Source: Flavobacterium sp. UGB4466
GTDB taxonomy: Bacteria > Bacteroidota > Bacteroidia > Flavobacteriales > Flavobacteriaceae
Length of the DNA: 64,000 nt
Direction of reading: 5' to 3'
Assembly (NCBI RefSeq): GCF_903469665.1
Contig: NZ_CAGKLC010000003.1
Location: 1 to 64,000 of the forward strand
Shown here: piece by piece, positions 10,022 to 23,708 of the stretch
How positions within the stretch are numbered: the first letter of the stretch is position 1
How the letters are laid out: each line of letters starts with the position of its first letter
Position numbers and translations under genes: made by a program
Notes under the pieces: generated by a model
The model's input: the letters and a program-made list of their open reading frames with translations, nothing else
The model's database searches: none
Told to the model about the DNA's origin: nothing

Positions 10022-10113
10022 ATATTTTTTGAGAATTATAGGGATTTAGTATGGGGAAAGTTTTTAGAATTGAAGAGAGTTTCTAGTTCAAGTTTCGAAA
10101 CAGAAAGCTTCTA

Positions 10114-10183
10114 ACCTGAAACCTGAAACTTGAAACCTGAAACTTGAAACTTGAAACCTGAAACTTGAAACTTGAAACCTGAA
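10114..10183. repeat. Heptamer tandem repeat, ten copies of ACYTGAA
   Basis: Ten contiguous 7-base units run from 10114 to 10183, mixing ACCTGAA and ACTTGAA. They lie between parS sites 5 and 6, upstream of mnmG. The reverse complement of the same unit recurs downstream of mnmG (from about 12195). Confidence 0.9.
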
Positions 10184-10195
10184 AAAGAAAAACCA

Positions 10196-12194: not shown

Positions 12195-12326
12195 GTTTCA
12201 AGTTTCAAGTTTCAAGTTTTGAGTTTCAAGTTTTGAGTTTCAAGTTTGAGGTTTCAAGTTTGAGGTTTCAAGTTTGAGGTTTCAAGTTTGAGGTTTCAAG
12301 TTTGAGGTTTCAAGTTTTGAGTTTGG
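12195..12326. repeat. Tandem repeat array (TTTCAAG/TTTGAGG units)
   Basis: Heptamers TTTCAAG, TTTTGAG and TTTGAGG alternate across about 130 bases. The core is five perfect copies of the 14-mer TTTCAAGTTTGAGG at 12238-12307. The unit TTTCAAG is the reverse complement of the CTTGAAA unit found upstream of mnmG, so the two arrays form a loose inverted pair around the gene. Confidence 0.9.
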
Positions 12327-21184: not shown

Positions 21185-22159
21185 TTATTTACTAAATCCC
21201 AGAACTTCTCTTACTTTGGCTAAAACACCATCGGCAATTACGGAAGCTTTTGAAGCGCCTTTTTTCAGTAGGTTATCTACTTCATCAAGGTTGTTCATGA
21301 AGTAAGTATATTTTTCTCTTTCGGTTTTAAACTTTTCTATAATCAGTTCAAACAAAGCTTGTTTGGCGTGACCGTAACCATAGTTTCCTCCTAAATAGTT
21401 GGCTCTCATTTCGGCGATTTGTGCTTCAGTTCCCAGCAGGGAATAAATGGCGAAAGCATTACAGGTATCCGGGTTTTTAGGTTCTTCAAGTGGCGTACTA
21501 TCGGTTTCAATACTCATCACCTGCTTGCGAATTGTTTTATCGTCAAGGAAAATATTGATCAGATTGTTAGCTGATTTACTCATTTTTCCACCGTTTGTTC
21601 CCGGAATCAGTTTGCCGTCTTCCTGGATTTTTGCCTCTGGAATCACAAAGGTTTCTCCCATTTGGTGGTTGAAACGTGAAGCGACATCACGAGTGATTTC
21701 TAAATGCTGTAATTGATCTTTACCAACCGGTACAAATTCGGCATCATACAATAAAATATCGGCGGCCATTAACATCGGATACGTAAAAAGTCCGGCGTTA
21801 ACATCGTCTAAACGATCCGCTTTATCTTTAAACGAATGTGCGAGAGTCAGACGCTGAAAAGGAAAAAAGCAGCTTAAATACCAGGTTAATTCTGTCGTTT
21901 GTACCACATCAGATTGTCTGTAAAAGGTTACTTTATCAGGATTTAAACCACAGGCTAGCCAGGCGGCAGCAGTGCTGTAAGTGTTTTCTCTAAGAGTTTT
22001 ACCGTCTTTAATTTGTGTAATCGAATGTAAATCAGCAATAAATAAAAAGGATTCATTTGCCGGATTGTTTGATAATTCGATTGCAGGAATAATTGCTCCC
22101 AATAAATTGCCTAAGTGTGGCGTTCCAGTACTCTGAACACCGGTCAGTATTTTTGCCAT
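21185..22159 (-). CDS. trpS: Tryptophan--tRNA ligase
   Basis: This 324-residue class Ic synthetase charges tRNA-Trp. It begins MAKILTGVQSTGTPHLGNLLGAI, containing the HIGH-type motif (HLGN), and carries GGKMSKSANN as the KMSKS loop (about 193-202). Other family landmarks are LFIADLHSITQ, YLSCFFPFQRLTLAHSFKDK and PMLMAADILLYDAEFVPVGKDQLQHLEITRDVA. Length is normal for bacteria. It is convergent with dprA and monocistronic. A near-match of the -7 element (GAACTTTG, one base off) precedes it on the minus strand. Confidence 0.96.
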   Translation of the reverse strand: MAKILTGVQSTGTPHLGNLLGAIIPAIELSNNPANESFLFIADLHSITQIKDGKTLRENTYSTAAAWLACGLNPDKVTFYRQSDVVQTTELTWYLSCFFPFQRLTLAHSFKDKADRLDDVNAGLFTYPMLMAADILLYDAEFVPVGKDQLQHLEITRDVASRFNHQMGETFVIPEAKIQEDGKLIPGTNGGKMSKSANNLINIFLDDKTIRKQVMSIETDSTPLEEPKNPDTCNAFAIYSLLGTEAQIAEMRANYLGGNYGYGHAKQALFELIIEKFKTEREKYTYFMNNLDEVDNLLKKGASKASVIADGVLAKVREVLGFSK

Positions 22160-22236
22160 TCTCGTTTTTTCTTATTACTAAATGCAAAGTTCGTTTTTTT
22201 AGAGCAAAGTGTGTAATTTTTTTTAGTTTCTAATTA

Positions 22237-22280
22237 TTTTAACCACAGAGAACACAAAGTTTTTCACAGAGTTTGCGAAG
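22237..22280. repeat. Left CACAGAG-type repeat flanking the GxxExxY gene
   Basis: This stretch contains ACCACAGAGAACACAAAG and TTTCACAGAGTTTGCGAAG. It is about 90 percent identical to the reverse complement of 22853-22902 over some 38 bases, giving an inverted repeat pair around the gene at 22338-22712. Confidence 0.8.
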
Positions 22281-22337
22281 GATTTAACTTTAATGAATGT
22301 TAAATTTTTTGAAGTTCACAAAGGGAATGGGTATGTA

Positions 22338-22712
22338 TTAATCGTTAATAACCCTTCGTATACCATTTTTTAGAAGAATTTCATTGAAGTTTATAAGTAA
22401 GCCTAGTTTGTATTTTCCAAGTTTTAAGTATGTTAAAGTTTGGGCTAAATGAATTGTGGTTAATGATTCTACACTTTTTATTTCGACTACAAATTTTTTC
22501 TCCACCAATAAATCAACACGATAACCGCAATCTAGTTTTACTTCTTCAAAAATTAGAGGCATCGCTTTTTCTTTTTCTACAGAAAGACCATGTTGTTTAA
22601 TTTTATAAAATAAACATTCTTTATATGCATTTTCAAGTAAACCAGGACCGAGTGCTTTGTGAACCTGAATTGCTAGTCCGATTATAATTGTAGATATTTC
22701 ATTCTCTGTCAT
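22338..22712 (-). CDS. GxxExxY protein (PD-(D/E)XK nuclease-like)
   Basis: This 124-residue protein has the family signature GPGLLENAYKECL (G-x2-E-x2-Y). It continues with MPLIFEEVKLDCGYRVDLLVEKKFVVEIKSVESL, in which the D of RVDLLV and the E-x-K of VEIKSV fit a PD-(D/E)XK active site. The C-terminal part TLTYLKLGKYKLGLLINFNEILLKNGIRRVIN is the usual ending. No function is established; nuclease activity is inferred from fold. Genes of this family are found in many genomes beside short CACAGAG-rich repeats, and that is the case here on both sides. No partner gene is present. It could be a repeat-linked selfish unit or a housekeeping nuclease. Confidence 0.85.
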   Translation of the reverse strand: MTENEISTIIIGLAIQVHKALGPGLLENAYKECLFYKIKQHGLSVEKEKAMPLIFEEVKLDCGYRVDLLVEKKFVVEIKSVESLTTIHLAQTLTYLKLGKYKLGLLINFNEILLKNGIRRVIND

Positions 22713-22752
22713 AATATCAAATTTAATACTTATTTCCTTATAATTAATTAAA

Positions 22753-22790
22753 TTTTAACCATAGAGATAGAAAGTTTTTCGTAGAGAAAG
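22753..22790. repeat. Degenerate inner copy of the CACAGAG-type repeat
   Basis: TTTTAACCATAGAGATAGAAAG and TTTTTCGTAGAGAAAGG (split around 22774) follow the same order as the left flank repeat in direct orientation but with several substitutions. It lies just upstream of the GxxExxY start. Confidence 0.6.
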
Positions 22791-22852
22791 GGAAGTTAGA
22801 TCTAAAAAAATTTAACTTAAAATCTGTTAACTTAGAAAAAGCTTTTCTATTT

Positions 22853-22902
22853 AAAAAACTCTGTAAACTCTGTGAAAGACTTTGTGTTCTCTGTGGTAAA
22901 AA
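22853..22902. repeat. Right CACAGAG-type repeat, inverted relative to the left
   Basis: AACTCTGTAAACTCTGTGAA and CTTTGTGTTCTCTGTGG read in reverse complement as the left flank repeat (22237-22280). It ends about 55 bases before the next gene. Confidence 0.8.
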
Positions 22903-22958: not shown

Positions 22959-23708
22959 ATGAAAGGATTAAAAGTTGTTTTTTGGGTTTTATGGCGTATA
23001 TGGTTTTATATTTTAATGGCCATTCCGATATTGATTATGCTGCCGTTTTTGCTAGTTTCTATAGCGTCAGAGAAGGGTTACCCCTATTTTTTTAAAATGG
23101 CCCGCATTTGGGCTAAATTTATCCTTTTCGGGATGGGTTTTTATTATAAAGTCGAACGTGAAGAGAAGCTGGTTCGAAATAAGAGCTATATGATCGTAGC
23201 CAATCATACTTCGATGACCGATATTATGCTAATGCTGGCTCTCGTTAAAAATCCGTTTGTTTTTGTGGGAAAGAAAGAGCTTTCAAAGATTCCTTTGTTT
23301 GGGTTTTTCTACAAAAGAACCTGTATTTTGGTTGATCGAACTTCTTCGAAAAGTAAAAATGAGGTTTTTAAAAGAGCGCAAAATAGGTTAAATCAAGGAC
23401 TTAGTATTTGTATTTTTCCTGAAGGCGGAGTTCCTGACGATGAATCTATTTTACTGGATGAGTTTAAGGACGGTGCTTTTCGTCTGGCGATTGAGCACCA
23501 AATTCCGATCGTTCCCATTGTTTTTGCGGATAACAAGGAAAGATTTTCATATACTTTTTTCAGTGGAAGTCCTGGAAAAATGCGTGCAAAGGTACTTCCT
23601 TTTGTTGCTACAGAAGGATTGGCAGCTGACCATAGAAAAGAACTGCGAGATCAGGTGAGACAAATGATTTATAAAGATTTACTGAAGTTTAAAAATAAAG
23701 AAAAGTAA
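22959..23708 (+). CDS. plsC: 1-acyl-sn-glycerol-3-phosphate acyltransferase
   Basis: This 249-residue enzyme transfers an acyl chain to lysophosphatidic acid to make phosphatidic acid, the second step of phospholipid synthesis, at the inner membrane. An N-terminal hydrophobic segment (about 8-32) precedes the acyltransferase domain with the catalytic HX4D motif in NHTSMTD (about 83-89), and later FVGKKELSKIPLFGF, FKRAQNRLNQGLSICIFPEGG (FPEGG motif) and IPIVPIVFADN. Because membrane-lipid acyltransferases are a large paralogous family, the exact acyl donor and acceptor are inferred. A strong hairpin terminator follows. Confidence 0.9.
   Translation: MKGLKVVFWVLWRIWFYILMAIPILIMLPFLLVSIASEKGYPYFFKMARIWAKFILFGMGFYYKVEREEKLVRNKSYMIVANHTSMTDIMLMLALVKNPFVFVGKKELSKIPLFGFFYKRTCILVDRTSSKSKNEVFKRAQNRLNQGLSICIFPEGGVPDDESILLDEFKDGAFRLAIEHQIPIVPIVFADNKERFSYTFFSGSPGKMRAKVLPFVATEGLAADHRKELRDQVRQMIYKDLLKFKNKEK

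Follow-up and report, generated by a model that had tools for sequence, protein, structure and literature searches.

A GxxExxY nuclease-like gene bracketed by inverted heptamer arrays in Flavobacterium: a candidate repeat-nuclease partnership

A GxxExxY gene and the inverted arrays on either side of it, in a 64,000-nucleotide stretch of the genome of Flavobacterium sp. UGB4466 (contig NZ_CAGKLC010000003.1, positions 1 to 64,000, hereafter the window), are probably one unit of a REP/RAYT-like repeat-nuclease partnership in which the enzyme is a PD-(D/E)XK protein. The arrangement looks like such a partnership because the arms bracket the gene and because array spacing matches the lineage of the protein, both near the gene and genome-wide. 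The features of the locus are collected in Table 1, where the two flanking genes, which we take to be trpS and plsC, are named from their sequences.

Table 1. Features of the GxxExxY locus in the window
Feature	Position	Strand	Description
GxxExxY gene	22338..22712	minus	intact ORF, 124 aa; TIGR04256 and PF13366 member
Left arm (3' side of gene)	22237..22285	plus	AACC plus CACAGAG/CACAAAG/CACAGAG, reads towards gene
Right arm (5' side of gene)	22854..22902	minus	inverted copy of left arm, same words and spacing, reads towards gene
Degenerate third array copy	22752..22795	plus	between gene start and right arm
trpS-like flanking gene	21185..22159	minus	host-lineage marker for the site
plsC-like acyltransferase flanking gene	22959..23708	plus	other border of the site

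Each arm is 49 nt long, with word starts spaced 9 and then 12 apart; the two arms are 86% complementary, lie 568 nt apart and are 95% identical in their outer 38 nt. The two 350-bp flanks give a local inverted-repeat score of 33, compared with a maximum of 18 in 1000 dinucleotide shuffles, so that the inverted repeat of roughly 40 bases described around the gene in an earlier note, made from the sequence alone, is borne out. By this score the gene ranks second among the 36 genes tested in the window. First rank belongs to a mnmG/gidA-like gene with an unrelated tandem repeat: TTGAAACYTGAAAC-like repeats, of another type than the window arms, lie inverted on both sides of it (10103-10184 and 12203-12283) and give a flank score of 50.5. 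The degenerate third copy upstream of the gene, likewise pointed out earlier, was recovered as two pieces, 22752-22767 being 94% like 22236-22251 and 22771-22795 being 76% like 22256-22280. Since this copy reads towards the right arm, which it faces, the pair has the appearance of a degraded palindrome on the upstream side of the gene, and a more intact equivalent can be made out by eye at the orthologous locus L073. Among the other intergenic stretches of the window (those above 60 bp between ORFs of at least 90 codons) none has more than one such heptamer word on the same strand, and the 1.2-kb region gave no Rfam match at E up to 1.

The protein is a full-length match to TIGR04256 (E 2.5e-40, 137.5 bits, cut-off 35), and its sole Pfam match is PF13366 (PDDEXK_3; E 1.2e-39, 135.8 bits, cut-off 22). 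It carries G24xxE27xxY30, D67, E77-x-K79 and Q91xxxY95, and G24, E27, Y30, D67, E77, K79, Q91 and Y95 are all invariant across 55 aligned proteins, picked from 80 loci plus the window with omission of sequences containing stops or frame breaks. ExK together with QxxxY is read as a RecB/Cas4-like motif. The AlphaFold2 model (pLDDT 96.4, pTM 0.89) is a single compact domain with no extra DNA-binding domain. Its top Foldseek match was Cas4 4r5q (E 2.3e-3, with nothing below 0.001), and the top VIA-align match was SSO0001 4ic1, a Cas4 (Z 9.8, 101 residues, rmsd 4.3), further matches being a restriction enzyme (Z 8.2) and Hjc resolvases (Z about 6 to 7). The best match in a PADLOC profile search was also Cas4, weakly (E 0.0084, 14.4 bits), and no relative was found among solved structures searched by sequence. 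The model thus displays a nuclease fold with invariant catalytic-type residues, and by this predicted fold the protein would be a small Cas4/RecB-like PD-(D/E)XK nuclease, nearest to Cas4; the PD-(D/E)XK-like residues remarked on earlier are in line with the PF13366 match and with the Cas4-like predicted fold.

Arms of this kind accompany GxxExxY genes across phyla. The public-genome set comprised the best 80 of 574 loci, of which 78 were testable, two having been dropped for short flanks. In agreement with the compact repeat-plus-nuclease unit proposed earlier, inverted arms scoring at least 14 bracket 59 of the 78 loci, whereas 3 of 89 other genes drawn from those loci, and 6 of 390 shuffles, reach that score; at a score of at least 20 the figures are 26 of 78, 2 of 89 and 0 of 390, respectively. 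The remaining loci (19 of 78) have no arm pair at the score threshold. The hosts are mainly Bacteroidota, but L141 (score 15.5) and L124 (score 18.5) come from records that carry the labels Planctomycetota and Treponema, these labels being those of MAGs. Five more loci come from plasmid or chromid records. In Gemmatirosa (Gemmatimonadota), CCGCAGAGGACGCAGAGG palindromes flank both sides with a score of 55.5, the match being to residues 1-43 only in an unannotated record whose gene ends were guessed; loci of Bernardetia and Bacteroides have arm pairs scoring 18 and 22.5, and no array arms were found at a Prevotella locus from the plasmid or chromid records. The earlier remark that such genes lie next to repeats in unrelated bacteria therefore holds for Bacteroidota and for the Planctomycetota-labelled, Treponema-labelled and Gemmatimonadota records. 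Within the genus, 64 of 90 loci score at least 14 and 45 of 90 at least 20 (shuffles 4 of 270 and 0 of 270); three of 93 loci were dropped, one without an ORF and two with short flanks, L316 is the same locus as L047 and is counted twice both here and in the 202-locus spacing set described below, and L206 duplicates L007 from a second genome of one species. The last of the five plasmid or chromid loci, in Sphingomonas parapaucimobilis (L256, 1995-2423), has a single array, upstream; its GxxExxY gene stands in a row of fab genes, with fabD and fabG as neighbours, and may be domesticated or in decay.

At most arm-bearing loci the words are CRCWRAG-like and point at the gene. Over 139 GxxExxY loci (4 of 143 were left out for want of a usable ORF) 893 words point inward and 244 outward, whereas the corresponding figures for 76 other genes are 87 and 80; at least three inward words occur at 110 of the 139 loci and at 9 of the 76 other genes. 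A control in which flanks were swapped between GxxExxY loci (mean 11.8, maximum 34.5), with 9 of 32 loci above its 95th percentile and 4 of 32 above its 99th, is inflated, since identical words recur at unrelated loci, and it was dropped in favour of other genes and shuffles.

Profile search of the contigs of the same genome revealed five GxxExxY loci above the family cut-off, comprising three whole genes, one gene in two frames and one split by contig ends, and the inverted array around the gene differs from locus to locus. Inverted pairs are of CACAGAG type in the window, of ATTAAG type at 92 kb on C3 and of CACGAATT type on C4; as judged by eye, the arms are of degenerate CACGAATT/CACGGATT type at the C7 locus and of CGCAAGG/CGCTAAG type at the locus split between C120 and C43. 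The arm score of L217, an intact relative of the C7 locus, is 29.5. At the C7 site itself (L018, C7:67600-70300) the gene is in two frames, likewise in a genome of the same species (G374:C1:2808103-2808445), and relatives keep an intact copy. The gene at the end of C120 and start of C43 (L019/L020) is whole at the same place in same-species G374 (L195), so that its interruption appears to come from a break in the assembly.

The strict array pattern CRCWRAGNNCRCWRAG has 98 matches in this genome, compared with one for the reversed pattern. The commonest word is CGCAAAG, and the CACAGAG form is listed, among the 98, at the window locus only. The 14 gene-less sites inspected are intergenic arrays, mostly palindromic by eye and about 70-200 bp long. 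At 34.8 kb on C16 a CACGAATT palindrome is nested within a CGCAAAG palindrome; inspection by eye of this site (L106) and of L091 (C5:94 kb) reveals one word type's palindrome inside another's, as if array centres accept other arrays. L110 (C16:37.7 kb) is a tandem run whose unit of about 42 bases is one array. A reading of solo palindromes as terminators was rejected: by eye, those inspected begin with T runs at their left edge and end with A runs at their right edge, opposite to the layout of a terminator. Two of the 98 matches are the window arms themselves and the other 96 are all over 1 kb away from the nearest GxxExxY match, which bears directly on autoregulation. If the arrays were operators of the GxxExxY gene, to which the GxxExxY protein itself or another regulator binds, their position near the gene on both sides and their pointing at it would be accounted for. 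The presence of arms 3' of the gene as well, and a modelled protein of one compact domain without an added DNA-binding domain, both speak against this, and self-regulation taken alone, which had been suggested earlier, leaves the 96 distant arrays unexplained. We consider it highly improbable.

The arrays go with the gene across whole genomes. Of 150 genomes examined in the genus, the 121 with the GxxExxY family have a median of 9 array matches and the 29 without it a median of 1 (p 1.6e-9, no phylogenetic correction); the reversed-pattern control averages 0.67. Genome size accounts for part of this difference, the partial Spearman correlation with size removed being 0.59 (again with no phylogenetic correction), and when only genomes of 3.0-4.3 Mb are taken, the median is 6 for the 49 with the gene and 1 for the 16 without it (p 4.6e-6, phylogeny uncorrected). 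Three of the 29 genomes without a GxxExxY match still hold at least five array matches. Repeats equally common without the gene, the outcome that the earlier note had set against its own reading, are thus not what is found across genomes. The mapping of repeats onto genes that it had advised gives a divided answer: they co-occur from genome to genome, but most array copies within one genome are gene-less. The excess of arrays where the gene is present also tells against a domesticated maintenance nuclease, one that serves the host by resolving or trimming palindromes (cruciforms, Holliday-like structures) without any spreading, since more arrays, not fewer, accompany the gene. The Hjc resolvases among the fold matches, the palindromic form of the arrays, and the largely vertical loci with diverged within-genome copies would all suit such a role, which nevertheless strikes us as improbable.

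The property of the arrays that follows the protein is the spacing of the words. Over 3591 pairs without homologous flanks, from the 89 of 139 loci with enough spacings, spacing and protein distance are correlated (Mantel 0.509, with 0 of 999 permutations as high). Spacing classes of 8, 9 or 10-11 bp could be assigned to 88 of 202 loci, 114 not being typable, and the nearest non-orthologous protein predicts the class of 79 of the 88 (shuffled maximum 53). The window locus is of the 9/12 bp class. MTENELSKIVF-like proteins go with a spacing of 9 and IIVDVCYKIH-like proteins with 8, while YKIIGLAIEVH-like and LDCAYKVHxKLGSG-like proteins go with 10-11; MEVHRNLGPGLLEVVYKDAL-like proteins are typed as 'none' for this word, and their close relatives bear CACGAATT or CAGATT arrays. 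The letters of the word are only weakly coupled to the protein among non-orthologous loci (Mantel 0.087, 22 of 999 permutations as large), and were set aside as the coupled quantity in favour of spacing.

The same matching extends to arrays elsewhere in the genome. With the fetched gene loci subtracted, the 20 genomes that have a typed 10-class gene show a share of 0.52 for arrays of spacing 10, and the 41 genomes lacking one a share of 0.22 (p 1e-4, phylogeny uncorrected and with part of each genome's genes typed); these 61, of 68 typed genomes, have at least three arrays to compare. In eight genomes reached through loci of the 574-locus public search the 9-spaced counts are 10, 13, 42, 15, 5, 4, 39 and 47, and the controls, in the same order, 0, 0, 0, 1, 0, 3, 3 and 0. 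The sole genome of the eight without a 9-spaced excess is G403, whose fetched gene L185 is of the 10 class; G404 has 39 nine-spaced matches against a control of 3, though its fetched gene L149 shows 10-spaced words. From this coupling, beside the gene and genome-wide, the earlier proposal that the protein recognises the repeats appears plausible on sequence evidence. The spacing could instead be conserved through slow indel change rather than through recognition. A rival reading is shared descent only, with passive arms, spacing co-inherited with the protein and some other host or selfish factor spreading the arrays. Many loci are indeed orthologous and vertical among close species, and word letters drift fast. 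The coupling nonetheless persists when pairs with homologous flanks are removed, it reaches arrays outside the fetched gene loci, and the core of the word is the same across distant hosts, where neutral DNA should presumably be saturated; shared descent by itself therefore seems unlikely.

At the site occupied by the window gene, the arms track the gene and not the host. The trpS-plsC interval was compared in the 30 best-scoring trpS loci, the genome of the window included, of which 29 were readable; L079 was dropped, no trpS start having been found, and the 37-bp interval in L071 possibly reflects a wrong plsC start. The GxxExxY gene is present in 16 of the 29 and absent from 13, and at the occupied sites it has the orientation seen in the window in 12 cases and is reversed in four, one of them broken. 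Two or more words are retained in 11 of the 13 gene-less intervals, L065 and L070 retaining an array-type inverted pair; L053 and L054, with TrpS proteins 98% identical, both lack the gene. For 14 gene-bearing genomes, a set that leaves out L052 (from the species of the window) and L068 (broken gene), word similarity at the site tracks the GxxExxY gene, with a partial Mantel of 0.497 once trpS is allowed for (3 of 4999 permutations), but does not track trpS (-0.09, 3553 of 4999 permutations). The trees conflict accordingly: the GxxExxY gene groups G000 with G114 (100/98), whereas trpS groups G114 with G245 (95/86). G000 and G114 are 89.6% identical in the GxxExxY gene and 85.5% in trpS; G114 and G245 are 80% identical in the former and 93% in the latter. 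Since the words track the gene rather than trpS and the trees disagree, gene and arms appear from their sequences to have been replaced together at an old trpS-plsC site. The three intact reversed genes group with the L075 gene of usual orientation, with modest support (82/85), which fits their origin by inversion between the arms. At some loci the two arms have a peculiarity in common; examples noted by eye are a lengthened first spacer at L056 and GGCCACAAAG/GACCACAAAG words at L062.

Turnover of arrays is visible at other sites too. At 12 of 12 gene-less sites the array is also found in another genome of that species. A relative whose flank pieces are 94-99% identical retains 0 to 2 words at L087, L088 and L105, where other sequence stands in place of the array. 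The L098 arrays of two same-species genomes differ blockwise, the two outer arms matching each other exactly in G374 and not in G000, and tandem copy numbers at L104 and L110 differ between genomes, those of L110 in two relatives. Within-genome copies, part of which were fetched, gave 91 pairs with a best identity-like score of 0.77 and a median of 0.32. With the window protein as query, 6 of 72,556 plasmid records matched at E 1e-5; none of 50,697 phage records matches the GxxExxY protein, and none of the viral contigs with the 140 pattern matches encodes a relative of it. GxxExxY loci are often orthologous and vertically inherited among close species. The comparison of syntenic strains for empty sites that the earlier note recommended brought no clean one to light: the 12 array sites showed neither a clean insertion nor a target duplication, and among the 29 trpS-plsC intervals there was replaced sequence and no clean empty site with a target duplication.

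These observations weigh on an ordinary insertion sequence, in which GxxExxY would be the transposase, the arms terminal inverted repeats and the solo copies MITE-like. Inverted ends, dispersed gene-less copies and presence or absence at trpS-plsC are what such an element would leave. Against it stand the 91 pairs without near-identical copies, the lack of any clean target duplication in the sites compared and the near absence from plasmid and phage records, and we give it very little credence. The suggestion that the unit may be mobile has in consequence survived in part: trpS-plsC intervals show the unit in place, missing, inverted or replaced, but clean target duplications, near-identical copies and phage carriage were not found and plasmid carriage is almost nil.

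For the partnership that we favour, the following scheme may be proposed. The GxxExxY protein would recognise arrays built of words some 7 bp long, reading both the word and the spacing, the word in the branch of the window being CRCWRAG, and would nick or cut array DNA, probably in palindromic form. Recombination repair with other arrays might then copy arrays and make the arms alike, and the same repair would occasionally invert, replace or lose the gene between the arms. Gene-less palindromic arrays would be the dependent members of this system and the gene-bearing unit the provider. There is an even chance that the window unit represents a wider, phylum-spanning class of repeat-nuclease systems, with proteins unrelated to those of REP/RAYT, in which Cas4-like GxxExxY nucleases read a code of word and spacing; several such systems would coexist in a genome, each maintaining and spreading its own arrays and gene. 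On the same even odds, this class would use spacings of 8, 9/12 or 10-11 bp, with CACGAATT, CAGATT, ATTAAG and CACATAG as further words in other branches.

Such a system would supply a function for a widespread nuclease-like family for which none was found in print, and would explain many small intergenic palindromic repeats in Flavobacterium-like and other bacteria. It would also mean that REP-like spread of repeats does not require an enzyme related to HUH transposases. From the spacing classes one would predict that each protein prefers arrays of its own spacing, and if the arrays are indeed cut, the family would be a set of compact, naturally varied, sequence-reading Cas4-like nucleases. 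The parts available of the literature on GxxExxY and PF13366 mention no function or repeat association, and no report of an association was found for the array words, REP/RAYT, Flavobacterium repeats or nuclease-repeat pairs, judged by title or abstract, in the open-licence literature other than preprints; as judged from that literature, the repeat-GxxExxY partnership looks undescribed.

Among known systems, Cas4 and RecB-like nucleases are the nearest in solved fold, with weak profile similarity and the invariant ExK and QxxxY in common. The GxxExxY protein differs in its length, 124 residues compared with about 200 in the listed Cas4 chains, and in going with word arrays rather than CRISPR; cas neighbours are absent at the window locus, where the neighbours are the trpS-like and plsC-like genes. 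MITEs and insertion sequences share inverted ends and gene-less relatives with the GxxExxY units, which differ from them in that a target duplication was never observed, the copies compared were not near-identical, and word letters change fast. The closest likeness in organisation is to the REPtron or TIRtron, in that a GxxExxY gene is bracketed by repeats of a word family that is also dispersed without the gene, with the limit that what is shared is the word family, the exact CACAGAG form occurring at the window locus only. RAYT (TnpA-REP) is an HUH tyrosine transposase acting on GTAG-tagged stem-loops, whereas the GxxExxY protein is, by predicted fold, a PD-(D/E)XK nuclease with spaced heptamer arrays, and the arms of the window unit contain neither GTAG nor CTAC; since RAYTs are HUH enzymes, the GxxExxY unit is not a REPtron by membership. 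According to the available portions of two papers on REP/RAYT systems, a chromosomal gene lies beside or between repeats that are also dispersed as gene-less palindromes, with cognate pairing, and TnpA-REP genes resemble housekeeping genes more than transposase genes (PMC8266576, PMC3733652). In their low within-genome identity, rare plasmid or phage carriage and orthologous loci, GxxExxY genes resemble REP-associated transposases as these are described in the text available from the first of those sources (PMC8266576).
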